Source: Methanomicrobiales archaeon (GTDB taxonomy: Archaea > Halobacteriota > Methanomicrobia > Methanomicrobiales > JACTUA01). From it: a stretch of 41,555 nt of DNA. The notes beneath the pieces are model-generated. The model did no database searches. It saw only the letters and a list, made by a program, of their open reading frames with translations, and had not been told where the DNA came from. How positions within the stretch are numbered: the stretch's first letter is position 1; the number at the start of each line of letters is the position of its first letter. The stretch lies in the NCBI GenBank assembly GCA_029907705.1, contig JARYLJ010000016.1, positions 1 to 41,555 on the forward strand. Reading direction: 5' to 3'. Made by a program: the position numbers and the translations under genes. Below are positions 15,304 through 38,334 of this stretch, piece after piece.

Positions 15304-15930
15304 TCAACTCCCTGCCTTCTTTCTGATCCGCTCGATCGCCCCGACCACCTTCCTCCCCTTCTCGTGCGCCTCCACGAGGGCGGTCGGATGCTTCCTTATC
15401 CCGCCGTATTTGTCCATATCGTTCGCGATCATATTGTCCCAGTACTCGAAACCGATGGTGTTGAAGAAGGCGGTGATCGCGGGGAAGGCGGCGTCGAAGA
15501 CATGCTCGTAACCCAGACCTGCGGTCGAGACGAAGATCCCCTTGTGGCTCCTAATGTGCTCCTCGCTGAAGTAGAGACTTCGAAGGATGAACTTCCTCGC
15601 CCACAGGAACTGGGCGCGATCGATGAGGCCCTTCAGCTCCGCGGTGATCCCCATGCTGTAGATGGGGGAGGCGATCGCGAGGCAGTCTGTCCCCAGTATC
15701 CTCTCGAAGAGGTCGGTGAGATCGTCCTTCACGATGCAGTGGCCATCCCTGTGACAGGCGTTGCATCCACGGCAGGGCGAGTACGTGAGTTCGCGGAGCA
15801 CCACCTTCTCTGTCGCTCCTCCTGCCTCCCTTGATCCCTCCAGAAGGGCATCGAGCAGTGTCTCCGTGTTCCCGTGTCTCCTCGGGCTCCCCGATATCCC
15901 CAGCACCCTGATCTCCGGCATGGTCATCAT
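15304..15930 (-). CDS. iron-sulfur flavoprotein (NADPH-dependent FMN reductase fold)
   Basis: The 208-residue protein has the flavodoxin-like FMN-binding start GISGSPRRHGNTETLL and a compact cysteine motif C53, C56, C59, C65 (PCRGCNACHRDGHC), the spacing used for the 4Fe-4S cluster of methanogen iron-sulfur flavoproteins (Isf). LAIASPIYSMGITAELK is the usual FMN-phosphate and isoalloxazine region. Isf proteins take electrons from ferredoxin and can reduce O2 or H2O2. The start overlaps the stop of the upstream paralogue in ATGA, so the two are a translationally coupled pair. Close paralogue but not a recent duplicate. Confidence 0.9.
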   Translation of the reverse strand: MMTMPEIRVLGISGSPRRHGNTETLLDALLEGSREAGGATEKVVLRELTYSPCRGCNACHRDGHCIVKDDLTDLFERILGTDCLAIASPIYSMGITAELKGLIDRAQFLWARKFILRSLYFSEEHIRSHKGIFVSTAGLGYEHVFDAAFPAITAFFNTIGFEYWDNMIANDMDKYGGIRKHPTALVEAHEKGRKVVGAIERIRKKAGS

Positions 15931-16541
15931 CCCGCGAGACGGCCCTTCATATCCGCATAGATGTTCTTGCCCAGACGATACGCGTCGGACTTCGCGGTCG
16001 GATGCTCCTCGATTTCCCCCTTCCTGTCCACGCCATTCACCATCAGGTACCTGATATCACGATCTCTGACCTCCAGCACGTGGTAGAAGCATTTGATCGA
16101 CGGGATCGCCGCGTCGAAGACGTAGTCCCACTTCTGGCCCGCGCTGGACAGGAAGACCCCCATCCTTTTTCCCTTTCTCTCTTCCGGCACGATCGGGAGC
16201 TTCAGCACGTACTTCCTCGACCGAAAGACCTGCGCCCGGTCGATGAGCGCCTTCGTCTGCGCGTTGATCCCCATGCAGAAGATGGGGGCAGCGATGACGA
16301 TGCAGTCAGCCTCCACCAGTTTGTCGTGGAGCGCATCCATGCCGTCACGCTGCACGCATCTGTTCAGCACCTCACAGGCATTGCACCCCCTGCACGGGTT
16401 CACATTCGCCTCCACGATCGGGATCTTCTCGATCTGCACCCCCTCCTCCCCGCCGATGGATTCGAGGAACCAGTCGAGGAGTGTTTCGGAGTTTCCATGC
16501 CTTCTCGGGCTGCCTGCGATCGCGAGGACCTTCATCTGCAT
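15927..16541 (-). CDS. iron-sulfur flavoprotein, upstream paralogue
   Basis: With the start at 16541 the protein has 204 residues: AIAGSPRRHGNSETLL for FMN, cysteines C50, C53, C56, C62 (PCRGCNACEVLNRC) for a 4Fe-4S cluster, and VIAAPIFCMGINAQTK. The frame is open for another 95 codons upstream, but a TATA box (16565-16570) lies only 26 nt before 16541, so a longer protein is unlikely; ATG 16535 is an alternative start. No Shine-Dalgarno motif, in line with a leaderless message. It heads the two-gene flavoprotein operon, whose members may form a heterodimer. Confidence 0.9.
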   Translation of the reverse strand: MQMKVLAIAGSPRRHGNSETLLDWFLESIGGEEGVQIEKIPIVEANVNPCRGCNACEVLNRCVQRDGMDALHDKLVEADCIVIAAPIFCMGINAQTKALIDRAQVFRSRKYVLKLPIVPEERKGKRMGVFLSSAGQKWDYVFDAAIPSIKCFYHVLEVRDRDIRYLMVNGVDRKGEIEEHPTAKSDAYRLGKNIYADMKGRLAG

Positions 16542-16564
16542 ACCAGAGACCTTCGATACGGGAG

Positions 16565-16570
16565 TATAAA
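16565..16570 (-). promoter_or_regulatory. TATA box of the iron-sulfur flavoprotein operon
   Basis: Read on the minus strand the motif is TTTATACT, centred 26 nt before the ATG at 16541. It fixes that start over the longer frame and predicts leaderless transcription. Confidence 0.55.
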
Positions 16571-17031
16571 ACATGTTCAGAAGACGACAACTCTCATGGC
16601 CCCTCCCGAATGGATGCCGCCGGTGCATGAAGATGCAGAGCGGACGACCTGACATCCGTTCCTCCCTCTGCCACCAATCCGTCATCTCCAGGTGCTCCCG
16701 AACCCCCTCACTTTTGTACACAGCTACCCTCCTTGCGAGATCTTTTCCCGCCTCTCTGCACCATGTCAAGGGCGGACCTTCCCATGAAGGTGCTCCTGAG
16801 GATCCCCGATACGGCGAATGCCACATGCATGAGATGGCGGATCTGGTGCAGGAGTATCACCCCGGGAGAGCGATGGGTGCCTTTTGATGCCGGGCCGCAG
16901 GCCAAAGAGGCGGCAACCACACCCGCCCCGGCGGACGCCGATCTGCTCCTTCGGTCTCCGGCACGTCCAGGTGAGTACCTCATTCAGAAAATTCCCGAAG
17001 TGCCGGATGCACAAACAACCAAAAAATGTGA
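16571..17031. other. 461-nt stretch without a supported gene
   Basis: The only protein-like piece is on the minus strand at about 16700-16870 (LLHQIRHLMHVAFAVSG and then STFMGRSALDMVQRGG), ending at the stop at 16708. It has no start with a ribosome-binding site and no family resemblance that can be named; it may be a remnant. Otherwise nothing is seen. Confidence 0.35.
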
Positions 17032-17679
17032 TCAGATCTTCTTGAAGCAGAGGTACCAGTCCTTGCACTCGTACCCCTCTGAAAGACGTTTCTCCATCTG
17101 CGCCGCGGTTGCGGGTGCAGGCACGACGACCTTCTCACCGGGCTGCCAGTTCGCCGGGGTGGCGACACCGTATTTGTCGGTCGTCTGCAGCGCCTTTATC
17201 AGCCTGAGTATCTCCGGCATCGATCGTCCGTTCGTGAGCGGATAGTAGATCATCGCCCGAAGAACACCCCTGTCGTCGATGAAGAAGACGGCCCTGATCG
17301 CGGCCGTGCTGCTCATCCCGGGGTGGATCATCCCGTAGAGCTTCGCCACCTTCATGTCCAGGTCGGCGATGATGGGGAACGGTATCCTCACCCCCATCTT
17401 CTCCTTCACATTGTTCACCCATGCCAGGTGCGAATGCACACTGTCGATGGAGAGCCCGAGGAGCTGCACATTCAGCTGCTCCAGTTCGGGATATATCTGC
17501 GTGAACGCGATGAACTCGGTCGTGCAGACAGGTGTGAAGTCCGCCGGATGCGAAAAGAGGACCACCCATTTCTTTCCCCTGAAATCGGAGAGCTTCATCT
17601 TCCCATGCGTCGTCACGGCCTCAAAGTCGGGCGCCATCTCGCCCAGAATCGGGGACCGATGCTCTTCTGCTTCTGCCAT
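17032..17679 (-). CDS. peroxiredoxin, Prx6-type (archaeal)
   Basis: The enzyme reduces H2O2 and organic peroxides. The 215-residue form from ATG 17679 has the peroxidatic cysteine C52 in HPADFTPVCTTEF and two C-terminal cysteines, C205 and C211 (YECKDWYLCFKK), the pattern of long archaeal Prx6-group peroxiredoxins that form decamers. GAGAGGGGGG upstream of 17679 supports this start over GTG 17706, which overlaps the preceding gene. Last gene of a four-gene minus-strand operon with small iron proteins. The reductant could be the rubredoxin-like proteins of the operon or the Grx-TrxR fusion at 24.2 kb (inference). Confidence 0.94.
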   Translation of the reverse strand: MAEAEEHRSPILGEMAPDFEAVTTHGKMKLSDFRGKKWVVLFSHPADFTPVCTTEFIAFTQIYPELEQLNVQLLGLSIDSVHSHLAWVNNVKEKMGVRIPFPIIADLDMKVAKLYGMIHPGMSSTAAIRAVFFIDDRGVLRAMIYYPLTNGRSMPEILRLIKALQTTDKYGVATPANWQPGEKVVVPAPATAAQMEKRLSEGYECKDWYLCFKKI

Positions 17680-17702
17680 TCGTTCGCCCCCCTCTCTGGG
17701 AC

Positions 17703-18098
17703 TCACTTCATAATCTCGTCCATTGCGGCCCTGCCGTACACGTACGCGGGCATCCCCGAGAGGAGGAAGGTCACGCGGAGCGCCTCCTCGATCTCCTCCT
17801 TCTTCACCCCCAGCTTCGGTGCACCCGCCAGCTGAGCCCTGACCGCATGCTGATCACGGAGCGCGGCGGCGATCGCGATCGCGATGATCTTCTTCGTCTG
17901 CCTGGAGAGTGCGCCATCGTCCCAGATGTGCTGGTCGAACTTCAGGACCATGTCATGCATCTCGGGCTCCTTCTCCATGAGCCCCTTGAAGAAGACCGGC
18001 ACCTTTCCGATCTTCTTCTCCAGGTCCTTCATCCTCTCGTTCGCTATGGGATCCTTCGAGCTGGCCTTCTTCGGGGCTGTTGTCTTCTTCGCTGCCAT
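17703..18098 (-). CDS. carboxymuconolactone decarboxylase-like (AhpD fold) protein lacking the CxxC
   Basis: The 131-residue helical protein has the CMD signature region IGKVPVFFKGLMEKEPEM, LSRQTKKIIAIAIAAALRD and GVKKEEIEEALRV. In AhpD-type members the AlR segment is followed by Cys-x-x-Cys-x-x-x-His used for thiol chemistry; here it reads ALRDQHAVRAQ, so both cysteines are missing and disulfide reductase activity is not expected. An N-terminal lysine-rich tail (MAAKKTTAPKKASSK) is unusual. Fixed between small iron-protein genes and Prx6, so an accessory role in oxidative stress is likely, but the activity is unknown. Confidence 0.85.
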   Translation of the reverse strand: MAAKKTTAPKKASSKDPIANERMKDLEKKIGKVPVFFKGLMEKEPEMHDMVLKFDQHIWDDGALSRQTKKIIAIAIAAALRDQHAVRAQLAGAPKLGVKKEEIEEALRVTFLLSGMPAYVYGRAAMDEIMK

Positions 18099-18102
18099 GC
18101 AC

Positions 18103-18228
18103 TCACCCCTTCAGTACCATCGGCTCGCCACAGCAGACGAGTTCTCCACCGCCGACTTCGATCACCTTCACGATGTTGCCGCAGATCATGCACTCAAAGA
18201 CCTGCCCTTCCTTTGAGACGTTGACCAT
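18103..18228 (-). CDS. desulforedoxin-like mini iron protein
   Basis: A 41-residue protein with C13, C16, C32 and C33 in [10 protein letters not shown] and [10 protein letters not shown]: the Cys-x-x-Cys plus adjacent Cys-Cys pattern that makes the Fe(SCys)4 centre of desulforedoxin and of the N-terminal domain of desulfoferrodoxin. There is no superoxide-reductase domain, so it is an electron carrier alone. The first methionine (MVNVSKEGQ) is preceded by GTGATAC; the gene lies 4 nt upstream of the CMD gene and 14 nt after the rubredoxin-like gene. It is too short for standard ORF cut-offs and easily missed. Confidence 0.87.
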
Positions 18229-18242
18229 GTGTATCACTTCGG

Positions 18243-18479
18243 TTACTTCAGGTATTCCCGCTTCTTTGGCGGCTTCATCGCATCCTCGGGCGTCTTGATG
18301 TCGGGCCTGATATGCGTCATCGGGAAGCACTGATACTCCTCGCAGGCGCACTGCGGGCACTTTCTCAGGTCCTGCTCGGCAGCATTCAGCTCGTACTCGG
18401 CACCGCAGTCGATGCATACGTACTTGCCCGGCCCCACTTTGGAGCCCGCCTTCATCTTTTTGGGCTTCATTTCGGCCAT
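18243..18479 (-). CDS. rubredoxin-like/zinc-ribbon small protein
   Basis: The 78-residue protein has C22, C25 ([12 protein letters not shown]) and C41, C44 ([14 protein letters not shown]), the two knuckles of a rubredoxin-type fold, with two further cysteines at 46 and 51. The aromatic residues next to the knuckles and a 15-residue spacing are looser than in true rubredoxin, so a zinc ribbon cannot be excluded. GGTGAG four nt before the ATG and a TATA box at 18511-18518 mark it as the first gene of the operon with desulforedoxin-like, CMD-like and Prx6 genes. A role as electron donor to Prx6 or rubrerythrin is inference. Confidence 0.78.
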
Positions 18480-18510
18480 TTTCTCACCATTCCTTCTTTG
18501 ACATCTATCG

Positions 18511-18518
18511 TATTTATG
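18511..18518 (-). promoter_or_regulatory. TATA box of the rubredoxin-Prx6 operon
   Basis: CATAAATA on the minus strand, about 34 nt before the first start codon; a short leader with GGTGAG follows. Confidence 0.5.
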
Positions 18519-18654
18519 GCTTTGTGAAATTGCACCAGGGGCAGAGAGGTCCCATTAAATGGCTTCTTGAAGGCAAAAGGGCATTCTTCAGCCTTTTATC
18601 ATGTAAGGGATCGAACCATCACATCTATATGCGGTAAAGGTGCATGTTCGTCGG

Positions 18655-19254
18655 ATGAGTACGAAGGTGATCGGTCTTCTGGGAAGTCCCCTGTCGGAAG
18701 GGAATACCGCACAGCTGCTGGATCAGGCATTGAAAGGCGCCTCGGAGGCAGGCTGCGATGTGGAACGGATCGAGGTGCCTTTTCTTAAAATAAAGCCCTG
18801 CATGGAGATATTTTACTGCGTGGAGCACGAGACCTGCAGAATACAGGACGACATGCAGGAGATGTACCGGAAATTCAGCGAGCTCGACGGACTCATCATC
18901 GCCACCCCGGTGATGACGATGGGGGTGCCCGGTGCCCTGAAGTCGTTCATGGACAGGTTCCAGGTCTTTTTCATGGCCAAGTACCTGAGAAAGAAACCGC
19001 TCGTGGCCGAAGAGAAGCGGACCAGGAGACGGTGCCTACTCATCTCCATATCGGGGATGAACATCCCCGATGTCTTCACCGGGCTGAAGATGACCGTGCA
19101 GGCCTTCTGCCATATCGTCGACTGCCGGTACGCTGACGAGCTGCTTATCAGGGACATGGACCATATCCGCGAGATCCGGACCAGGCCCGATCTGCTGAAA
19201 ACCGCCCACGACAAGGGGTTCGAACTGGGAAAGGCACTCGTCGCCAGAGAATAG
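18655..19254 (+). CDS. flavodoxin-fold NADPH-dependent FMN reductase family protein, atypical cysteines
   Basis: The 199-residue protein begins GLLGSPLSEGNTAQLL, the FMN-phosphate loop of the family, with LIIATPVMTMGVPGALK as the second flavin segment. The cysteine cluster is C49, C55, C61 (PCMEIFYCVEHETC): one ligand fewer and wider spacing than in the Isf proteins at 15.3-16.5 kb, so a 4Fe-4S cluster is doubtful. Start 18655 was chosen because CTATATG at about 18625-18631 is a fitting TATA box; GTG 18640 would add five residues. Divergent from the Prx6 operon and followed by rubrerythrin. Confidence 0.86.
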   Translation: MSTKVIGLLGSPLSEGNTAQLLDQALKGASEAGCDVERIEVPFLKIKPCMEIFYCVEHETCRIQDDMQEMYRKFSELDGLIIATPVMTMGVPGALKSFMDRFQVFFMAKYLRKKPLVAEEKRTRRRCLLISISGMNIPDVFTGLKMTVQAFCHIVDCRYADELLIRDMDHIREIRTRPDLLKTAHDKGFELGKALVARE

Positions 19255-19328
19255 CATTATTGCTACGCCCCTCTGCAGGAATGCCCCTGTCAGGAATCAT
19301 TATGTGAGCGGACGTATCATTCCTCCTC

Positions 19329-19829
19329 ATGGAGACAGACAATAATCTGAAGGAGGCATTCGCCGGCGAGTCCCGGGCGAACCGCAAGTATACCGCCTTT
19401 TCCGAGCGTGCAGAGGAGGAGGGATTCAGAAATGTGGCGAAACTCCTGAAGGCGGCCTCGGAGGCGGAGGCGATACATTCGGCGCGACTGCTCCGCGTGA
19501 TGAAGGAGGTCTCCAGCACGGCAGGAAACCTGGAGAAGGGCATTGAAGGGGAGACGTACGAATTCACCCGCATGTACCCCGGATTCATCGAGAAGGCGAA
19601 ATCGGAGGGTAACAACGATGCGGTCACCGCATTCACCTACGCGATGAAGGCAGAGGAGGTGCACGCGAAGTTCTACAGGCAGGCGCTGGAGCGGGTGAAG
19701 GCCGGCAGAGATCTGGATGCGCAGAAGTTCTTCCTCTGCCCGGTCTGCGGAAACATCGCACTCGACGCCCCGCCCGAACGGTGTCCCATCTGTGGAGTTC
19801 CGGGGAGCAGGTTCAGAAAAATCGAATGA
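19329..19829 (+). CDS. rbr: rubrerythrin
   Basis: The 166-residue protein has an N-terminal four-helix diiron domain (FAGESRANRKYTAF, SEAEAIHSARLL, GETYEFTRMYPGF, AMKAEEVHAKFY supply the carboxylates and histidine) and a C-terminal rubredoxin domain with CPVCG and CPICG near residues 139-160. It reduces H2O2 to water with electrons from a rubredoxin or NAD(P)H-dependent donor in anaerobes. Length is on the short side but complete. Placed 75 nt after a flavoprotein gene and next to other oxygen-defence genes; a separate promoter is not clear. Confidence 0.94.
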   Translation: METDNNLKEAFAGESRANRKYTAFSERAEEEGFRNVAKLLKAASEAEAIHSARLLRVMKEVSSTAGNLEKGIEGETYEFTRMYPGFIEKAKSEGNNDAVTAFTYAMKAEEVHAKFYRQALERVKAGRDLDAQKFFLCPVCGNIALDAPPERCPICGVPGSRFRKIE

Positions 19830-20858: not shown

Positions 20859-22142
20859 TCATGAATCATCGCGTTGATCGCCCTGGAAGACCAGCTTTCT
20901 GCCCAGGTGCTCCTCCACGGCCGACGCGAGTGCCTCCCTCTGCCGGAGAATTCTGCTTCTGATCGTCTTCTTCTTCTCCACCAGCTCCTCACTCTCCCGC
21001 CGGAGTCCCCTCTTCGCTGCGTCCAGCTCCTCCAGTGTTCTGACGATCTTCTGCTCCGTCTGCCACACCTCTGAGAAGTCGATCATCCTCTCCAGCCCTT
21101 CCCTCTCCCTTCGGACCCTCTCCCCCTCCTCCAGCGTGGCGATCGCCTCCTGGAGAGCGCTCCCTTCCCCCGAGAAGAGCTCCTTCTCCTCCCTCCCCTT
21201 CAGCACAAGCTGTCCATCCTCGAGGAGCTTCTTCACCTGACTGGATGCACGCATGAGCATGTCCGAGACGCATCCATCTCCCGCCTCCCTCCCCTCGAGC
21301 ACGCCGATCGCCTCCTCGAGCAACGCCTCGCTGCGTGAATTCTTCTGCCTTCGCGAGATCGCGGCACCTCTCCTGAAGACCGCCAGCAGTACGGCGACGA
21401 TCCGGTCCCGCTGCTGCCTGAGCGAAGACTCCGACTGACGGAGTTCCTCCACCCTCTTCTTCATCGCCGCCAGTTCGGCGTAACCATGAGAGATCCGCAG
21501 CGCCTCTCTCATCTCCGCCGTCTCCCTCTCTCTCGCCTCGATCGCCCCCGTCTCCTCCTCAATCCGGGAGATTCGCAGTTCCGTATCGCGCTCCTCCCCT
21601 TCGAGCGCCTGCAGGAGCTTCATTTGCGAATCGACGAGGGAGAGATTCTTCCTCCTCTCCTCCGCATCACGCCGCTTGCCGCTCATATGGTTGAGGCAGG
21701 CGCCCAGCGTGCTGATCCGCTCCCTCACTCCGCGCATCTCCTCCGGCAGGATCCCCTGCAGGTATTTCCCCGCGCCCTTCATCGCCGAGATGCAGCCTTT
21801 CAGGATGCCGGCGACCTCCTGGTAAAATTCCTCGCCTCTCTCCGGAAGCGGACGCTGAAGCTGCTGCTCCATCGCCTTCAGGAAGGCAGGGAGCGAGGTG
21901 CGTGCGATCTTCTCGAGTTTCGGGTGCCACGCCGCCTCCCTCTCCCTGTTCTTCATCCGCCCAACCAGGTTCGATAGCTCGCGGATCTCCCGCTCCACGA
22001 CCGCTCTCTCTTCCAGAATGCCCCGCTCCAGACGCGCCTCCAGCGCTTCTCTCTCCCCCTCCACGAATGCCCCCAGGTCGGAGAACCCGATACCCCGGTC
22101 TGCCTCGTCTCTGCCGAATATGGAGCGGATTTTTTCCAGCAT
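20859..22142 (-). CDS. uncharacterised coiled-coil protein
   Basis: The 427-residue protein is nearly all charged helix: long Glu/Arg/Leu-rich heptads (EALEARLERGILEERAVVER, ELRISRIEEETGAIEARERE, KRVEELRQSESSLRQQRDR) with a less charged middle (SLPAFLKAMEQQL, IAVLLAVFRRGAAISRRQ). No signal peptide, no enzyme motif. An SMC-like ATPase head is absent, so it is a stand-alone coiled coil. It lies 25 nt behind the AOR-family gene with a GAGG motif before its ATG, so the two are probably co-transcribed, though a functional link is not obvious. Family not recognised. Confidence 0.75.
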   Translation of the reverse strand: MLEKIRSIFGRDEADRGIGFSDLGAFVEGEREALEARLERGILEERAVVEREIRELSNLVGRMKNREREAAWHPKLEKIARTSLPAFLKAMEQQLQRPLPERGEEFYQEVAGILKGCISAMKGAGKYLQGILPEEMRGVRERISTLGACLNHMSGKRRDAEERRKNLSLVDSQMKLLQALEGEERDTELRISRIEEETGAIEARERETAEMREALRISHGYAELAAMKKRVEELRQSESSLRQQRDRIVAVLLAVFRRGAAISRRQKNSRSEALLEEAIGVLEGREAGDGCVSDMLMRASSQVKKLLEDGQLVLKGREEKELFSGEGSALQEAIATLEEGERVRREREGLERMIDFSEVWQTEQKIVRTLEELDAAKRGLRRESEELVEKKKTIRSRILRQREALASAVEEHLGRKLVFQGDQRDDS

Positions 22143-22167
22143 ATGCAGCCTCTTTTCGATTCAGCGG

Positions 22168-23991
22168 TCAGTCATCCCCACCATATCGCGATCCCTCTTC
22201 GATCCCTGCATCGGCCCCGATACCCAGCCTCTCCCGCGTTCTGCCGGTGGGGATCCCCTGTTCGTCCCATCCGCGTTCCCGGTAGTACTCGCTGAGCAAC
22301 GGATCCCTCCTCCACCCCTTCCCGCCAGCACCAGCCCCTTCCTTTGAAAGGAGCCTGTCGGGAAGCGTATCGTCCTTCATCTCCAGGCCGGCACCCAGAT
22401 TGAAGAGGCGCTGCAGGTTCCATATCCTCTCGCCGATGCGCAGGAATTCCGCCTCATCGATCTCCTCGCCGAGGAGCTCCGATGCCATGTACGCATAATC
22501 CTTGGCATGGAAGGTCCTGATGGTGAAGAGGCACATGCCCAGGGAGTCGATGCATGCGGAGATATCCTGCATGTACTTCGTCCAGTATGCCTTCCCTTCC
22601 AAGGAGAGCGGGTCCAGCCGGACGGGAATGCCCAGCACCTCGGGGTACACCATGTTCCCGTACACATGGCAGGCGCCCCGCACGGAGGTCGCGTACTCCA
22701 GCCCCTGCCCCTGGAGCCCCCTGGGATCGTAGGCGGGGATCTCCTGGCCCTTCACGCTCATCGAGAGCTCCGGATGTCCGTACCGCCGCGCGAACCGGAG
22801 CGATCCCTCTGCCAGCTCCGCACCGATGCCCTCGCCGAAGGCGATCATCCGTACGAGGGGCTCCAGTACTCCCGCGTCCCCGAACCTGAACGGGTTACTG
22901 ATATGGCCCCTCTCCGCCATCTCCATCGCACAGGCGATCGTGGCACCCGTGGAGATCGTATCGAGGCCCAGCTCGTTGCACAGGTAGTTCGCCCGGGCAA
23001 TCGCCTTCAGGTCATTTACGCCGCAGGCGGGTCCGAACGCCCAGATCGTCTCGTATTCAGGCCCTTCACCGTCATGGCCGTTCGTCGAGGTGACCCTGCC
23101 GCAGGCGACCGGGCAGGCGTAGCAGCCCTTTCTTCCCCTCAGGATCGTCCGCTCCATCTCCTCTCCGGAGACCATCTCCGCCCCCTCGAACCTCGAATGC
23201 TGGAAGTTCCTGGTCGGCAGGAGCTCCTTCTCGTTGATCAGGTTTACCAGCGTGGCGGTGCCATAACGGTGGAGACCACCCCGTGCGATGCCGCTCTTCT
23301 CCACCTTCTCCCGAACGAACTCCCTGACCCGTGCGGCCCCCTCTTCGTCCCAGCTCCGTTCCCTTCTCCTGCCGGTCACCACGATCGCCTTCAGCCTCTT
23401 CGCGCCCATGACGGCGCCCACGCCGCCCCTGCCGGCCGCCCTTGCCTTCTCGTCGATGATACAGGAGATGAGCGCCTGGCGCTCTCCCGCCGGCCCGATG
23501 CACGCCACCCTCGCGTTCCTGTCACCGGTATCACGGCGGATCGCCTCCGTCACCTCCGCTGTACCCATGCCCCAGTAGTCCGATGCATCGTGGAGCTCTG
23601 CTCCCGCTTCATCGATCCTCAGGAGTACGGGCGATGCGGAGGCCCCTCTGAGGACAATTGTGTCCGTACCTGCCCTCCGGAGCGCGGCCCCGAACTGCCC
23701 CCCCATGTTCGAACTGGTCAGCGTGCCCGTCAGGGGGGATTTTGTCACCACGTCGAGACGGGAACCGAGCGGAACGCCGGTCCCCGTCAGCAGGCCTGCG
23801 GAGAATACCAGAATATTCTCGGGGCGGAGGGGATCGATGGCCGGATCCAGCCCCCGCGTGGCGATGCGGACCCCCACTCCGCGTCCCCCCAGAAAACCCC
23901 TCCGGATCGCACGGGAGAGGCCTGATTCGGCGATGGTGTGCCCCCCGAGGTCCACATCCAGTACGGAGCCAAAAGCCCCCCCTCCCTGCAT
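22168..23991 (-). CDS. tungsten-containing aldehyde:ferredoxin oxidoreductase family protein
   Basis: The enzyme oxidises aldehydes to acids with ferredoxin through a tungsten bis-pterin. From ATG 23991 it has 607 residues, normal for the family. The 4Fe-4S ligands are C290, C293, C297 (GCYACPVACGR) and C487 (DSLGMCLFTIR), nearly the positions known in Pyrococcus AOR. Pterin-binding segments RGGVGAVMGAKRLKAIVV and TSTNGHDGEGPEYETIWAFG are present. The frame is open 38 codons further up, but the TATA box at 24016-24023 lies 28 nt before 23991 and the N-terminus there matches family length. The specific aldehyde is unknown; a role in detoxification or in amino acid-derived aldehydes is inference. 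Confidence 0.92.
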   Translation of the reverse strand: MQGGGAFGSVLDVDLGGHTIAESGLSRAIRRGFLGGRGVGVRIATRGLDPAIDPLRPENILVFSAGLLTGTGVPLGSRLDVVTKSPLTGTLTSSNMGGQFGAALRRAGTDTIVLRGASASPVLLRIDEAGAELHDASDYWGMGTAEVTEAIRRDTGDRNARVACIGPAGERQALISCIIDEKARAAGRGGVGAVMGAKRLKAIVVTGRRRERSWDEEGAARVREFVREKVEKSGIARGGLHRYGTATLVNLINEKELLPTRNFQHSRFEGAEMVSGEEMERTILRGRKGCYACPVACGRVTSTNGHDGEGPEYETIWAFGPACGVNDLKAIARANYLCNELGLDTISTGATIACAMEMAERGHISNPFRFGDAGVLEPLVRMIAFGEGIGAELAEGSLRFARRYGHPELSMSVKGQEIPAYDPRGLQGQGLEYATSVRGACHVYGNMVYPEVLGIPVRLDPLSLEGKAYWTKYMQDISACIDSLGMCLFTIRTFHAKDYAYMASELLGEEIDEAEFLRIGERIWNLQRLFNLGAGLEMKDDTLPDRLLSKEGAGAGGKGWRRDPLLSEYYRERGWDEQGIPTGRTRERLGIGADAGIEEGSRYGGDD

Positions 23992-24015
23992 ACTCAGTCC
24001 ATTGCCGCACACGAT

Positions 24016-24023
24016 TGATAAAT
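24016..24023 (-). promoter_or_regulatory. TATA box for the AOR-family gene
   Basis: ATTTATCA on the minus strand, centred about 28 nt before ATG 23991. It sits inside the longer open frame and so argues against the upstream start at 24105. Confidence 0.42.
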
Positions 24024-24150
24024 CTGATGCGCCTCCGGGCCAAAAGAACCCTCCACCCTGTTCACAAGCCTGAATTTTCGCTATTTTAGACCCGCGGGCC
24101 ATCACTGAACATCGACAAGCATTATTATTCCATCAATCCGATGTTGCTCT

Positions 24151-25302
24151 ATGCCCCGGGTGAGGATATACTCCACAGAGAACTGCCCCTACTGCAGGAT
24201 GGCAAAGGCATTCATGGACAGGCATGGGATCGAATACACCAATATTGACGTGGGCAAGGACAGGGAGGCGGCAAGGGAGATGATCGAGCTCTCCGGCCAG
24301 TACGGCGTGCCGGTGATCGTGATTGACGACGAGGTGATCGTCGGCCTGGACATGGAGCGGCTGGAGCGGCTTGCCGGAAGCGAGAGGGGCGAAGAGGCGC
24401 AGGACGTGGTGATCATCGGTGCGGGGCCTGCCGGCCTCACCGCCGCCATGTACTGCGCCCGCAAGTCCCTCCGCACACTCGTGATCGGCGCCGACATCGG
24501 GGGGCAGGCGCTCTGGAGCTGGTCGATCGACAACTACATGGGGTACCGCATGATCACCGGCGAGGAGCTGATGAAGAAGTTCGAGGAGCAGGTGAGGGAG
24601 CTGAACATCAGGCTCGAACTGGACAGGGTCGGGGCCGTATCCAGGGAGAACGCATCCTTCATGGTGATCACCGCCTCGGGTAGGGTGTACCATGCGAGGA
24701 CGCTGATCATCGCGACCGGAAAGAGGCCGCGAACGCTCGGGCTGAAGGAGGAGGACAGGTACATAGGAAAAGGGGTAAGCGTCTGCTCCACCTGCGACGG
24801 TCCTCTCTACAGGGAGAAGGTGGTGGGCGTCGTCGGCGGGGGTAATTCGGCGCTCCAGACCGCGATCGAGATGAGCGGGATCGCAAAGGAGGTGTACCTG
24901 ATCGTCCGCAGCTCGATGAAGGCGGACGAGATCCTGAAGGATGCATATGCAAAGAAGAAGAATGTCACCACCCTGCTGGACACCGTCGTCACCTCCCTGT
25001 ACGGCGAGCCGTTTCTGCAGGGGATAACGGTCAAAAACATGAAGTCCGGGGAGGAGAGGAAGATCGAAATGGACGGCCTCTTCCTGGAGATCGGCCTCCT
25101 CCCCAACACCGATTTCCTGGGGGGTTTCGTGGAGCTGAATGATGCGGGCGAGGTCGTCGTGGACATCAACTGCCACACGAGCGTGGAGGGCGTCTTTGCC
25201 GCCGGCGATGTGACGAACATCAAAGGGAAGCAGATCATCATCGCCGCGGGCGAGGGAGCGAAGGCGGCGCTGGAGGCGTACGAGTACCTGGTGAGGCGGT
25301 GA
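24151..25302 (+). CDS. glutaredoxin-thioredoxin reductase fusion
   Basis: The 383-residue protein joins two redox modules. Residues 1-80 are a NrdH/glutaredoxin-like domain with CPYC at 12-15 and the cis-proline segment GVPVIVID. From about residue 84 a complete thioredoxin reductase follows: FAD-binding VIIGAGPAGLTAAMYCA, active-site CSTCDG (C212, C215), the NAD(P) site VVGGGNSALQTAIEM, and the C-terminal FAD segment GVFAAGDV. The substrate disulfide domain is thus built into its own reductase, a rare arrangement compared with separate genes. Electrons would go from NAD(P)H or F420H2 to FAD, to CSTC, then CPYC. In VVGGGNS the two-arginine NADPH signature after this loop is not evident (IVRSSMK), so the electron donor is uncertain. 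Divergent from the AOR gene. Confidence 0.94.
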   Translation: MPRVRIYSTENCPYCRMAKAFMDRHGIEYTNIDVGKDREAAREMIELSGQYGVPVIVIDDEVIVGLDMERLERLAGSERGEEAQDVVIIGAGPAGLTAAMYCARKSLRTLVIGADIGGQALWSWSIDNYMGYRMITGEELMKKFEEQVRELNIRLELDRVGAVSRENASFMVITASGRVYHARTLIIATGKRPRTLGLKEEDRYIGKGVSVCSTCDGPLYREKVVGVVGGGNSALQTAIEMSGIAKEVYLIVRSSMKADEILKDAYAKKKNVTTLLDTVVTSLYGEPFLQGITVKNMKSGEERKIEMDGLFLEIGLLPNTDFLGGFVELNDAGEVVVDINCHTSVEGVFAAGDVTNIKGKQIIIAAGEGAKAALEAYEYLVRR

Positions 25303-28331: not shown

Positions 28332-29798
28332 CTATGCGGCGGGGACCTTCTTCTTTCTGTCCTTCTTCCTGTACCCTTCCAGCAGCACAGAGGCGATGTG
28401 CCTCACCGGCTTATCGGTGGACTCGCTGATGTGGAACTCGCAAAAGGGGCAGGCAGAGACGATGATGTCCGCGCCGGTCTTCTCCGCCTCCTCGCGCCGC
28501 TTCTCCGCCAGTGCCTTCGCCTCCTCGGGCAGTCCAGAACGGACCCCGCCCCCGGCGCCGCAGCACCTGCTCGGCATCTCGACGAACTCCCTTGCCACCA
28601 TCCTCAGCAGCTCCCTCGGCTGCTCGCGGATCCCCTGCCCCCGGAGGAGGTGGCATGGATCGTGGTATGTCGCCTTCAGGTCGAGCTTCTCGGGCGCCTC
28701 GATCCCGTATTCGGTGAGCACCTCCGTGATGTCCTTCACCTGGAAGGGTGTGCGGTAGTTGTTCTTCAGCGTGGAGCCGCAGCCGGCGCACATCGTCATC
28801 ACGGTCTTTATGCCCCTCTTCGCGAAGGCCTCGATGTTCTTTCTCCTCAGCTCGTCGATGAACGAGGTCTGACCCGTCCTGAGCAGAGGCGAGCCGCAGC
28901 AGACCTGATCGTGCGGGATGATCAGCCTGATCCCGTTCCTCCTCATCACCTCGATCATCTCCAGCGCGGCCTCCGGCAGCCTGCCGTTGTACATGCACCC
29001 GACGAAGAAGCCCACCTCCCCCCGGACCTCGCCCTCGGGTTCGATCACCTCGGGCACCTGCTCCAGGAACGTGGGCTTCGTCCGCGTGATACTCCTGCCC
29101 GTCGTTTTCACCAGCTCCGCCACCTCCCTGTGCCTGGGGAGCGTGAAACCTTCGCGGTTCGCGATCTCCCGGAGCTTCTCGATCGCCTTGCCCGGGATCT
29201 CGATCTCCTTCGGGCAGACTTCCACGCACCGGTGGCAGGTGGTGCACGTGAAGAGGCCGTCCTCGATCGCCTGCGCGATCTCGACTCCCGCACTGCGCGG
29301 ATCGAGCGCGATCCTCATCCGCTGCCGCATCGCGGTCGGTCCAGAGAACTTCGCCACCTCGATAGCGGGGCACTCGGAGACGCAGGCGAGACACTCGATG
29401 CAGTCCCGGAGCTCCTTCAGCCGCTCCACCTGCTCCTTCTCCGGCACCTTCGCCTCCCCCCTGCCCACGATCCCTTCCAGCGTGGTGAGTATGCCTGTCA
29501 TGTCCACCACCAGGTCCTTCACCACCGTCAGCCGGAGGGGCTCGATCACCATGCCGTCCCTCGCCTCCTCCAGGCATGCGAGCACGGGTTCGCCGTTCAC
29601 CCTGACCGCGCAGCTCCCGCACTGACCGGAGGCGCAGCAGTACCGGTAGGAGAGCGTGGGATCGATGGTGTCGTGGATCGCGTGGAGCACATGGAGTACC
29701 CTCGCCCCCTCGTTCACCTCAACGGTGTACTCCTCCAGGTGCGGTGCCGCATCCTTCTCCGGGTCGTATCTCGCGACCTTCACCGTGATCTGCTTCAT
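28332..29798 (-). CDS. tfrB: thiol:fumarate reductase iron-sulfur subunit TfrB
   Basis: TfrB takes electrons from coenzyme M and coenzyme B thiols, forming the heterodisulfide, and passes them to TfrA for fumarate reduction. The start at 29798 (ATGA overlap with tfrA) gives 488 residues. N-terminal plant-type 2Fe-2S domain: cysteines 54/55, 60, 63 and 75 (YRYCCASGQCGSC and PVLAC). Next, two 4Fe-4S motifs CIECLACVSECP and CTTCHRCVEVCP. The C-terminal half has two CCG repeats like HdrB (DQVCCGSPLL and SRCCGAGGGVRSG), the site where the heterodisulfide chemistry occurs. This SdhB-HdrB fusion is diagnostic and separates it from respiratory fumarate reductases. Cytosolic, no membrane anchor. Confidence 0.94.
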   Translation of the reverse strand: MKQITVKVARYDPEKDAAPHLEEYTVEVNEGARVLHVLHAIHDTIDPTLSYRYCCASGQCGSCAVRVNGEPVLACLEEARDGMVIEPLRLTVVKDLVVDMTGILTTLEGIVGRGEAKVPEKEQVERLKELRDCIECLACVSECPAIEVAKFSGPTAMRQRMRIALDPRSAGVEIAQAIEDGLFTCTTCHRCVEVCPKEIEIPGKAIEKLREIANREGFTLPRHREVAELVKTTGRSITRTKPTFLEQVPEVIEPEGEVRGEVGFFVGCMYNGRLPEAALEMIEVMRRNGIRLIIPHDQVCCGSPLLRTGQTSFIDELRRKNIEAFAKRGIKTVMTMCAGCGSTLKNNYRTPFQVKDITEVLTEYGIEAPEKLDLKATYHDPCHLLRGQGIREQPRELLRMVAREFVEMPSRCCGAGGGVRSGLPEEAKALAEKRREEAEKTGADIIVSACPFCEFHISESTDKPVRHIASVLLEGYRKKDRKKKVPAA

Positions 29799-31417
29799 GC
29801 CCCCCTCCGCTCGATCTTCCTGCCTTCGAGCGACTGGACCGTGTGCCCGAAGGATGAGTCCTTCGCACCCCAGGTCTGCGTCACGTCCACCCTCATGTGC
29901 GCACCCCGCGACTCCCTCCTGAGCAAAGCCCCTTCTACGATCAGGGAGGAGAGGAGCAGCATGTTCTCCAGCGTGCAGCACTCCACCAGGCTGTGCCTCG
30001 ACGAAGCGAGCGGGATCAGCCCCGAGAGCCTCGAGATCTCCCTCCTCGCCCGGAGAAGACCCTCCTCGCTCCTGAAGATCCCCGCCTTCTCCCACATGAG
30101 CAGGCGGAGCTGCCTCGCCGCCTCCGCGGGATTCGTATCACCTGCGTAGAACCGCTCCAGGCGCCGCTCCTGCACCTCCACCTGCCCTCTCCCGATCCTG
30201 ATCGAACGCCTCCCCCCCTTTCCCGCCGCCTCGCCGGCACGCTTCCCGAAGACCTGCGTGTCCGCCAGCGCGTTGCCGCCCAGGCGGTTCGCGCCATGCA
30301 CGCCGCCTGTCACCTCCCCGCAGGCATAGAGGCCCGCGAGCGTGGTGTGGCACTCCGGCGTGATGCGCAGCCCGCCCATGATGTGGTGCGCCGTCGGGGC
30401 CACCTCCATGGGTTCTTTCCTGATGTCCACACCGAACCGGAGGAACTGCTCCAGCATGATCGGGAGGCGCTCCTCTATCACGTGCGAGGGAAGATGGCTC
30501 ACGTCCAGGTGGACGCCGCCATGGATGGTCCCCCTCCCCTCGAGCACCTCCCTCGCGATCGCCCGCGAGACCACGTCGCGGGTGGAGAGCTCCTTCCGCA
30601 CCGGATCGTAGCGCTCCATGAAGCGCTCGCCCAGGGCATTCTTCAGCACACCCCCCTCGCCGCGGACCGCCTCTGTCACCAGCCGCCCCCTCGCATCGTA
30701 GGGGTAGACCGCCCCGGTGGGATGGAACTGGACCATCTCCATGTCGATCAGCTCCGCCCCCGCACGATAACCGAGGGCGTAGCCGTCGCCGGTGCCCGAG
30801 GCGCTGTTCGTGGAGATGTCGTAGACACGGGTCCCTCCCCCCGTGGCGAGCACGACTGCGTCCGCCTTCACCACCACGAGCTCGTTCTTCCTGTCCAGGG
30901 CGATCGCCCCGCAGACGCGTTCGCCGTCCTTCAGGAGCTCGATCGCCACGTGCTCCTGCAGCTGCACGACGTCGCTCCTCCGGAGCTGCTCCACCAGAGT
31001 GAGAATCATCTCGTGCCCCGTGCGATCGCCCGCGTAGCAGGTGCGGGGGAACCTCTGCCCGCCGAACGGGCGCTGTGCGATCTCCCTCCCCTCCGTCACG
31101 TCGAAGACCGCTCCCCAGGCGAGGAGATCCCTCATCCGCTCCGGTGCCTCCCTCACGAGCACCTCCACCAGCGCGGGGTCGTTCAGCCAGGCGCCCCCCT
31201 CCATCGTGTCCTGCACATGGAGCGCCGGCGAGTCCTGCGCCCGGAGGACCGCATTGTAGCCCCCCTCCGCCATCGTCGTGCACCCGCCCTTCCCGGTGAG
31301 CGTCCTGGAGAGGAGGATCGTATCGCCATATTTCGCCGCCTCCAGCGCCGCCCTCACACCGGCGCCCCCGCTCCCGATCACGAGCACGTGGCAGTCCATC
31401 GCGTCGTCTGCAAGCAT
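29795..31417 (-). CDS. tfrA: thiol:fumarate reductase flavoprotein subunit TfrA
   Basis: TfrA carries covalently or tightly bound FAD and reduces fumarate to succinate, needed for 2-oxoglutarate synthesis by the incomplete reductive branch. The 540-residue protein has the FAD motif VLVIGSGGAGVRAALEA, the conserved HPTGAVYP around the active-site region, TRDVVSRAIAREV, HHIMGGL with catalytic residues, and GANRLGGNALADTQVFG. Two starts are possible: 31417 (used here) or the internal ATG 31399, 18 nt downstream; a TATATAAA at 31427-31434 would place the transcript start near 31404 and so favour the shorter form. The gene heads the tfrA-tfrB operon. Confidence 0.93.
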   Translation of the reverse strand: MLADDAMDCHVLVIGSGGAGVRAALEAAKYGDTILLSRTLTGKGGCTTMAEGGYNAVLRAQDSPALHVQDTMEGGAWLNDPALVEVLVREAPERMRDLLAWGAVFDVTEGREIAQRPFGGQRFPRTCYAGDRTGHEMILTLVEQLRRSDVVQLQEHVAIELLKDGERVCGAIALDRKNELVVVKADAVVLATGGGTRVYDISTNSASGTGDGYALGYRAGAELIDMEMVQFHPTGAVYPYDARGRLVTEAVRGEGGVLKNALGERFMERYDPVRKELSTRDVVSRAIAREVLEGRGTIHGGVHLDVSHLPSHVIEERLPIMLEQFLRFGVDIRKEPMEVAPTAHHIMGGLRITPECHTTLAGLYACGEVTGGVHGANRLGGNALADTQVFGKRAGEAAGKGGRRSIRIGRGQVEVQERRLERFYAGDTNPAEAARQLRLLMWEKAGIFRSEEGLLRARREISRLSGLIPLASSRHSLVECCTLENMLLLSSLIVEGALLRRESRGAHMRVDVTQTWGAKDSSFGHTVQSLEGRKIERRGA

Positions 31418-36867: not shown

Positions 36868-37605
36868 TCATTGTAATTGTATCAATGGTTCGGTCGGATT
36901 TCCGGGTGTACACGTGAGCAAAGCATCCCTTCGCATCCCCCTACAGCCACCCCCGCTCCTTCCAGTAATAATAATCGTAGGGTGCATTCTCCCGCTCCTC
37001 CAGTACGAGGGTCGGAAGTCCTCGTGGATCTCTGCGAGGAGCACCTCCTGCTCGGGGAATCTGCGTGTGCCCCCGATCGCCCCGGCGAGGGTTCTGCCCA
37101 GCGCCCGCGCCTCCTCCTCTCCTCGCCCCATGGCATCTGGATCGCTCCGATGGGCGGCCGAGACCCCGCCCACCGCGATCGCACCGAGGAGGTTCAGGAC
37201 ATGGTTCAGGTAGGCGACCACCTCATCGCCTCCGGAGTCGCGCGAGGTCGAGACGGAGCAGCCGTACTTGCCGTGCAGGAGCTGGCAGTGGATCGCGCCG
37301 GCGAGGCGGTCTACGAAGTTCTTCATCATGCCCGTGACATTGTCCACGTACACGGGCGAGCCGAGCACCACGCCATCTGCATCTTCGAGCTCCCGCTGGA
37401 GCTCCATGAAGTCGTCCCTCTGGACGCACTCCCCCATGCGGTGGCAGAGCATGCAGCCGGTGCAAGGCTGGATCTCATACATCCAGAGGTCCAGGCACTC
37501 CGTGGTCGCGCCTGCCTCCCCCGCCCCCTGCAGGACCGCCTGCACGAGGCGCAGCGTCCTGCTCGCACTCCCTCTCGGACTTCCGCAGATCCCGAGGACC
37601 TTCAT
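36868..37605 (-). CDS. iron-sulfur flavoprotein (NADPH-dependent FMN reductase family)
   Basis: From ATG 37605 the protein has 245 residues. It starts MKVLGICGSPRGSASRTLRL (FMN loop), has the 4Fe-4S-type cysteines C48, C51, C54, C60 (PCTGCMLCHRMGEC) and VVLGSPVYVDNVTGMMKNF as second flavin segment. It is about 35 residues longer than the paralogues at 15.3-16.5 kb; the last residues (GRSGGGCRGMRRDAL and on) look unlike the family and may be read-through after a lost stop or frameshift near SYWRSGRMHP. Fourth flavodoxin-fold flavoprotein of the window. Confidence 0.86.
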   Translation of the reverse strand: MKVLGICGSPRGSASRTLRLVQAVLQGAGEAGATTECLDLWMYEIQPCTGCMLCHRMGECVQRDDFMELQRELEDADGVVLGSPVYVDNVTGMMKNFVDRLAGAIHCQLLHGKYGCSVSTSRDSGGDEVVAYLNHVLNLLGAIAVGGVSAAHRSDPDAMGRGEEEARALGRTLAGAIGGTRRFPEQEVLLAEIHEDFRPSYWRSGRMHPTIIITGRSGGGCRGMRRDALLTCTPGNPTEPLIQLQ

Positions 37606-38334
37606 GCGGAAGGGTGGGGGTTCATGGTTCATATCGGTGGTGTTCTGGAGCCGGAGGAGGCGGTGTGGGACTGTTGCGGGGGATAAACACTCCGCACCTT
37701 CCATGCGTCGACTCCTATAATACCGTCTGCCATACCATCTGCCGGCCCCTCTGGCATTACAGCCGGGTGTCGTCCCGTCCGAAAAAAAAAGAGTGGGTCG
37801 GGCGGGATGGGTGCGATACTGGTGCGGGAGTTACATGTTCCCCTGGAAGGTAGACAGGAAGATGTTCCCGCCAGACGGTCACGACAGTCGTATCATCGCC
37901 CCCACGGAAGATGCCTCTTTTCCTGGATATGGGGCGGTGGCATTTCTCTTACATGGGGAGTAGAAGAGAGCCGCCCATCTTTGATATGGATCTACGGCGA
38001 AACGCCACTTTTGTCCGGACCGATCGCCTGTGAGGGGATTCAACCGGCATCGAACCAAGATGCATCATGCGGGTTCTCGAGGAGGGATATGGGAAATGGT
38101 GGAAAAACAACGGGATCCTGCCAGATGGCGGAGATGGACGCATCGCTGTGCCGGGCAGAGGCGGGATAACCACGACCGGAATATGCATCGGACAATCCAG
38201 CGGGAAAATATTTGATATTGCATGCGGTACCGCGGGAACCGCAGTGATTCGAGATAAATTGTGGCGAGAGTTGTCCGCTCTCGCCTGAATGGATAAACTC
38301 AATGAGGTTGAAGTCCCATCCTCTTCGGAGGAGA
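37606..38334. other. 729-nt stretch without a supported gene
   Basis: The best + frame (38067-38288, 73 residues, GGITTTGICIGQSSGK in the middle) lacks a ribosome-binding site and family features, and a proline-rich minus frame overlaps it; neither can be supported. TATTATA at about 37716-37722 is promoter-like for the minus strand flavoprotein gene. Confidence 0.35.

Follow-up and report, generated by a model that had tools for sequence, protein, structure and literature searches.

In Clostridium pasteurianum, Cp34 and Cp9 form an NADH:peroxiredoxin reductase pair, where an AhpF-like reductase works with a separate glutaredoxin-like CxxC protein that feeds peroxiredoxin. In eukaryotic thioredoxin/glutathione reductase (TGR), a glutaredoxin domain is placed N-terminal to a thioredoxin reductase with a high-Mr, glutathione-reductase-like core. 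Members of the Methanomicrobiales make methane in many habitats; little is known of their response to oxygen stress or of the electron supply to their thiol proteins. The window, which is the whole 41,555-nt stretch of Methanomicrobiales DNA that was analysed, encodes a glutaredoxin domain and a thioredoxin reductase core in one chain. This fusion is the order-wide, one-piece form in the Methanomicrobiales of a previously known kind of enzyme in an altered layout.

Domain anatomy and kinship of the fused chain

The gene and its sites are:

24151..25302 (+): glutaredoxin-thioredoxin reductase fusion gene, 383 aa, from its ORF, domains and relatives
24151..24381 (+): glutaredoxin domain, residues 1-77 (PF00462 at residues 4-63, structure matches, model)
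24184..24195 (+): CPYC, residues 12-15 of the glutaredoxin domain, facing CHNC of AhpF
24382..24396 (+): short linker, residues 78-82 (pLDDT below 50 at residues 78-80)
24397..25299 (+): residues 83-383, core of AhpF / low-Mr thioredoxin reductase type (PF07992, 1fl2 match)
24784..24795 (+): CSTC, residues 212-215, the redox-active disulfide site of the core
24835..24852 (+): dinucleotide-binding loop GGGNSA, retained at residues 229-234
24904..24927 (+): VRSSMKAD, residues 252-259, replacing HRRDxFRA

The sequence-only reading had described a single 383-residue chain with a CPYC glutaredoxin followed by a CSTC thioredoxin reductase, and both the ORF and Pfam agree with it. The frame begins with ATG and has zero internal stops; Pfam places Glutaredoxin (PF00462) at residues 4-63 (E 7e-19) and Pyr_redox_2 (PF07992) at residues 85-369 (E 6e-42). 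The N-terminal domain has the glutaredoxin fold, with an N-terminal CxxC and a cis-Pro loop (GVPV) as in glutaredoxins and NrdH-like proteins, and its nearest solved chains are glutaredoxins and NrdH. Residues C12, C15 and P54 are invariant in the family alignment (15/15). Across 76 fused ORFs (73 relatives from 72 Methanomicrobiales loci, plus the window and two other archaeal fusions), the core CxxC is present in every one, and the only one lacking the glutaredoxin CxxC has its N-terminus cut by N.

An AlphaFold2 model from 15 family members (mean pLDDT 82.4, pTM 0.69) shows the expected elements of both domains; the linker is ill-defined at residues 78-80, and because of this low confidence no domain interface is claimed. 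A 347-aa antisense ORF (24133-25176, -) overlies the gene and is taken as a shadow, as the protein of the forward frame has relatives over its full length (44-67% identity). A chance ORF, a frameshift and an assembly artefact are excluded, since many genomes of the order, each assembled separately, show this joined frame; the frameshift or stop between the domains against which the sequence-only reading had guarded is not seen.

Profile alignment ties the chain to AhpF across both domains. In particular, hhalign matches the 15-row family alignment to E. coli AhpF at 100%, with family residues 7-383 on AhpF 124-518 over 372 columns; the CPYC faces the N-terminal CHNC of AhpF, and nothing in the fusion aligns to AhpF 1-123. 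The best solved match by phmmer is also AhpF. Structure comparison ranks the AhpF core 1fl2 at the top (Z 38.2, rmsd 2.3, 301 aligned), with thioredoxin reductases tied within 1 Z unit, in a search that hardly tests residues 1-78. The fusion scores 320.3 bits against the AhpF model TIGR03140, over residues 46-382 and below the curated cut-off of 502.9 bits, and 317.7 bits against the low-Mr NADPH thioredoxin reductase model TIGR01292, below its cut-off of 343.45 bits.

These results place the fusion near several defined classes. It carries a CxxC domain N-terminal to a thioredoxin reductase-like core, as AhpF does, a likeness in anatomy only; at 383 aa it lacks the two tandem N-terminal thioredoxin folds of AhpF (about 200 residues). 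Judged from sequence, it looks like AhpF minus the first of these folds; having neither the tandem fold nor a score above the curated cut-off, it is not filed as AhpF. Low-Mr NADPH thioredoxin reductases combine GGGxxA with HRRxxxR; the fusion keeps GGGNSA and has VRSSMKAD in place of the second motif. High-Mr thioredoxin reductases and TGR have a glutathione-reductase-like core and a dimerisation domain; the core here matches the low-Mr/AhpF type, and no Pfam dimerisation domain is among the 16 families listed for the fusion at E 0.001.

Distribution and origin in the Methanomicrobiales

The proposed search of related genomes finds the fusion in 115 of 120 Methanomicrobiales genomes, with matches that start in the glutaredoxin domain at residue 1-4. 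Relatives include Methanoregulaceae, Methanoculleus, Methanofollis, Methanospirillaceae and other Methanomicrobiales, and the same joined frame throughout the order rejects a one-off, unique fusion. The five genomes where no fusion was found (G032, G086, G089, G090 and G107) are 71-91% complete. Within the 115, the gene is split over two contig pieces in G082 and G106, and in G042 (L163, G042:C1:678647-679831) one in-frame TAG parts the glutaredoxin and thioredoxin reductase frames, unlike its relatives. Locus L158 (G008:C6) has two tandem fusion genes; in one of them the nucleotide loop is degenerate (GSGCGA) and the core motif reads CPTC. The earlier suggestion that the fusion could be standard in its family with a known role holds in its first part, at the level of the order; a literature search of one collection, from which most subscription journals are missing, found no published paper or role for it.

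A tree of 55 thioredoxin reductase domains, hand-chosen for spread from 142 aligned rows, has a 100/100 branch that parts AhpF, the methanogen fusions and the split glutaredoxin/thioredoxin reductase pairs from E. coli TrxB, the canonical archaeal HRR-type reductases and the two other fusions. The methanogen fusions form a weakly supported clade (60/91), and a single fusion event in their ancestor is likely. The fewest changes of the fused state on this tree is two. The other fusions, L134 (G153) and L135 (G276), which we infer to be of haloarchaeal lineage, have the same domain order and a longer linker (about 26 residues between matched segments); their cores sit in the TrxB clade with HRREEFRA intact. 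A single event behind all archaeal fusions is rejected on this placement, and L134/L135 apparently represent a fusion separate from that of the methanogens.

Elsewhere, the parts are found apart. Most thioredoxin reductases stand alone in 30 genomes from other families of the phylum; a glutaredoxin gene lies directly upstream of the reductase gene in G127, G133, G136 and all three Dehalococcoidia loci, with matched segments 20-45 bp apart, and a similar pair is found in broken pieces in G142 and G165. A single-chain reductase throughout one order, with its parts separate in other lineages, is a natural test of how an AhpF-type enzyme originates from a core and one dithiol fold.

Neighbourhood, candidate clients and predicted electron donor

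The window holds an oxidative-stress island at 17032-19829; a protein without a Pfam match and an aldehyde:ferredoxin oxidoreductase (AOR) gene occupy 20859-24105, between the island and the fusion.

17032..17706 (-): Prx6-type peroxiredoxin, candidate client (PF00578, PF10417; over the NCBIfam PRK13189 cut-off)
17703..18098 (-): carboxymuconolactone-decarboxylase-family (CMD) protein without Cys (PF02627)
18103..18417 (-): ORF with a desulforedoxin-like FeS4 domain at its end (PF06397, TIGR00319); probably only the last ~41 codons are the real gene
18640..19254 (+): FMN reductase / flavodoxin-like protein (PF03358)
19329..19829 (+): rubrerythrin (PF02915, PF21349)
22168..24105 (-): AOR-family gene, divergent neighbour, rarely conserved beside the fusion

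The Prx6 that the sequence-only reading placed in the neighbourhood is indeed there; at about 6.4 kb away and on the opposite strand, it is rejected as a member of the same operon. The CMD neighbour, having no Cys, is ruled out as a thiol-active AhpD. The protein at 20859-22142 (-) has 427 aa and many charged residues; in L073 a weak relative lies next to the fusion. The window further encodes TfrB and TfrA of thiol:fumarate reductase (CoM/CoB) at 28332-31417 (-), both over their NCBIfam equivalog cut-offs, and three more FMN_red/flavodoxin-like genes at 15304-16826 (-) and 36868-37704 (-).

Neighbours were counted by searching the window's own proteins in the 72 fused loci; clustering by raw ORFs was dropped because it gave shadow-frame families. 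Rubrerythrin lies upstream on the same strand as the fusion in 53 of the 59 loci having at least 2 kb upstream. Where at least 5.4 kb is available, rubrerythrin is found in 37/40 loci, CMD and the desulforedoxin-like protein in 36/40 each, FMN reductase in 35/40 and Prx6 in 29/40, leaving 11/40 fusions without a Prx6 found nearby. After clustering at 70% identity into 8 clusters, rubrerythrin, CMD, the desulforedoxin-like protein and FMN reductase each occur in 6, and Prx6 in 5. TfrB, whose function is not obviously related, is also downstream of the fusion in 32/72 loci, which indicates that shared descent within one order explains part of the pattern. Rubrerythrin was found in none of the 14 searched loci outside the fused Methanomicrobiales count. 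A desulforedoxin-like match occurs about 0.5 kb downstream in L057 (a Dehalococcoidia glutaredoxin-thioredoxin reductase pair) and in L153 (broken pieces), so that the connection to oxidative stress may extend to lineages outside the order.

The window's own genome (1.79 Mb, 98.85% completeness) has the fusion as its sole full thioredoxin reductase match; the next best is only partial (E 1.6e-10), so no other full one was found. The genome also has 4 thioredoxins and 3 glutaredoxin matches over cut-off (fusion included), 2 FTR-beta genes and 2 AhpC-TSA proteins over cut-off. At G000:C6:18409-18947 (-) there is a glutaredoxin match beside one to FTR-beta; the two may be a redoxin and the ferredoxin:disulfide reductase that serves it.

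Two domains in one chain, conserved CxxC motifs in each, homology to AhpF over both, order-wide conservation and the neighbouring island form the setting for a proposed function. The fusion is read, with a probability of about 0.74, as a single-chain AhpF-like flavoprotein disulfide reductase that relays electrons from FAD through CSTC and CPYC to a client, with Prx6 as the first candidate. A reduced nicotinamide cofactor, either NADH or NADPH, would deliver electrons to the FAD; from there they would go to the CSTC of the core and then to the CPYC of the tethered glutaredoxin domain, either on the same chain or, in a presumed dimer, on the partner subunit; the CPYC would then reduce client disulfides, beginning with those of Prx6 from the island. 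Other thiol proteins are probably clients as well, because the fusion is the genome's only full enzyme of the thioredoxin reductase type. The earlier proposal of a self-contained reductase for Prx6 keeps its dithiol relay, and the link to Prx6 appears plausible from the AhpF homology, the AhpF-type clade and the 29/40 loci with Prx6; other routes and clients exist beside it, namely the four thioredoxins, the two FTR-beta genes and another AhpC-TSA protein. Most probably the fusion is no one-off curiosity but serves as a built-in means of recharging proteins that destroy peroxide.

The strongest competitor, a tentative reading to which we give about half the weight, is that the fusion is mainly a general thioredoxin reductase, whose core reduces free thioredoxins and whose glutaredoxin domain either plays an accessory part or competes as an internal acceptor. 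It accords with the presence of one full reductase beside four thioredoxins, and with the G(K/R)G before CSTC (GKGVSVCSTC) that the fusion and most relatives keep, a thioredoxin-binding site according to an excerpt of PMC5627308. However, the active site is followed by PLY/PLF, which AhpF also has, and not by the FFY of TrxB, the glutaredoxin CPYC is kept as strictly as CSTC, and the thioredoxins could instead be reduced by FTR-beta proteins.

The electron donor of the proposed peroxiredoxin-directed relay can be approached through the nucleotide site. E. coli TrxB has GGGNTAVE and HRRDGFRA, AhpF has GGGNSGVE and EFAPEMKAD, and the fusion has GGGNSALQ and VRSSMKAD, one residue fewer than TrxB. 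The earlier remark that the NADPH-binding arginines are not evident is correct for the absent HRR motif, but R253 and K257 remain and the GGGNSA loop is intact. Arg or Lys occupies both basic places in 69 of 74 Methanomicrobiales sequences (window included), and one more has Arg and His; the other four come from one genus. In 62 of the 76 fused ORFs, a count that includes the two other fusions, GGGxxAxE ends in Gln in place of Glu. As described in the same excerpt (PMC5627308), the GGGxxAxE site is conserved in TR1 and TR3 types, less conserved in MjDFTR (F420-linked) and CpFTR (ferredoxin-linked), and degenerate in NAD(P)H-independent TRi enzymes; in the abstract of that paper, the classical system is described as NADPH-linked and the non-canonical one as NADH-linked. 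NADH or NADPH is thus favoured over F420H2 as the predicted donor, both by this published pattern, so far as the excerpt gives it, and by the kept loop and two basic residues, even though HRRxxxR is gone.

Of the earlier suggestion of NADH or F420H2, the nicotinamide half has fared better. It is unlikely that the donor is F420H2 as in Methanocaldococcus jannaschii DFTR, which would make the fusion an F420-linked peroxiredoxin reductase. HRRxxxR is missing here as reported for MjTR (excerpt of PMC6262447), and many methanogen enzymes use F420 as redox cofactor (excerpt of PMC8498797); against this, the GGGxxA loop is intact and the basic pair kept (MjDFTR being compared by its published description), and DFTR is listed for Methanococcales only in the excerpt of PMC8498797. 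The genome moreover encodes an F420H2:NADP+ reductase, so NADPH can be made, which weakens the case for F420H2 further. Slightly more doubtful still is the full version, where an order of methanogens replaced its separate thioredoxin reductase by a mini-AhpF with its own glutaredoxin that takes electrons directly from F420H2 and passes them to Prx6; if true, this would be an F420-powered peroxide defence enzyme. A ferredoxin donor as in FFTRs, perhaps supplied by the divergent AOR, is improbable: AOR adjoins the fusion in the window, L005 and L072, and in L150 and L151 the split pair has an AOR-family gene a short way upstream, but AOR was found beside only 2/72 other fused loci (some with short flanks), and the nucleotide loop is intact where that of NAD(P)H-independent TRi enzymes is degenerate (excerpt of PMC5627308).

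In the window's own genome, npdG (F420H2:NADP+ oxidoreductase) has a thioredoxin gene (WCGPC) immediately upstream (G000:C45:21909-22822). This arrangement occurs in 14 of 31 Methanomicrobiales npdG loci (L172-L202) and hints that thioredoxin may be linked to NADPH derived from F420. The fusion offers a defined protein for settling its donor among NADH, NADPH and F420H2, and the answer would decide how surprising the finding is.

Comparison with known systems

AhpF of E. coli (1hyu/4o5q) shares with the fusion an N-terminal CxxC fold followed by a thioredoxin reductase-like core, and the cores fall in one clade. AhpF differs in having two N-terminal folds where the fusion has one, and CHNC where the fusion has the glutaredoxin motif CPYC; its second nucleotide strand ends in an acidic residue (LLEFAPEMKAD) that the fusion lacks (LIVRSSMKAD), and the fusion's neighbours are Prx6 and rubrerythrin, not ahpC as for AhpF. 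AhpF takes NADH as its donor and AhpC as its client; the peroxiredoxin in the island near the fusion is Prx6. The Cp34/Cp9 layout corresponds to the split state of L053, L057, L058, L126 and L127, with two proteins where the methanogens have one chain. The low-Mr NADPH thioredoxin reductases (E. coli TrxB, M. mazei MmNTR) share the fold, FAD site, CxxC position and GGGNSA loop; in contrast, the fusion has lost HRRxxxR, carries a fused glutaredoxin domain and lies on the opposite side of the deepest branch of the tree. TGR and the fusion both place glutaredoxin N-terminal to a thioredoxin reductase, whose core is of the high-Mr type in TGR and of the low-Mr/AhpF type in the fusion.
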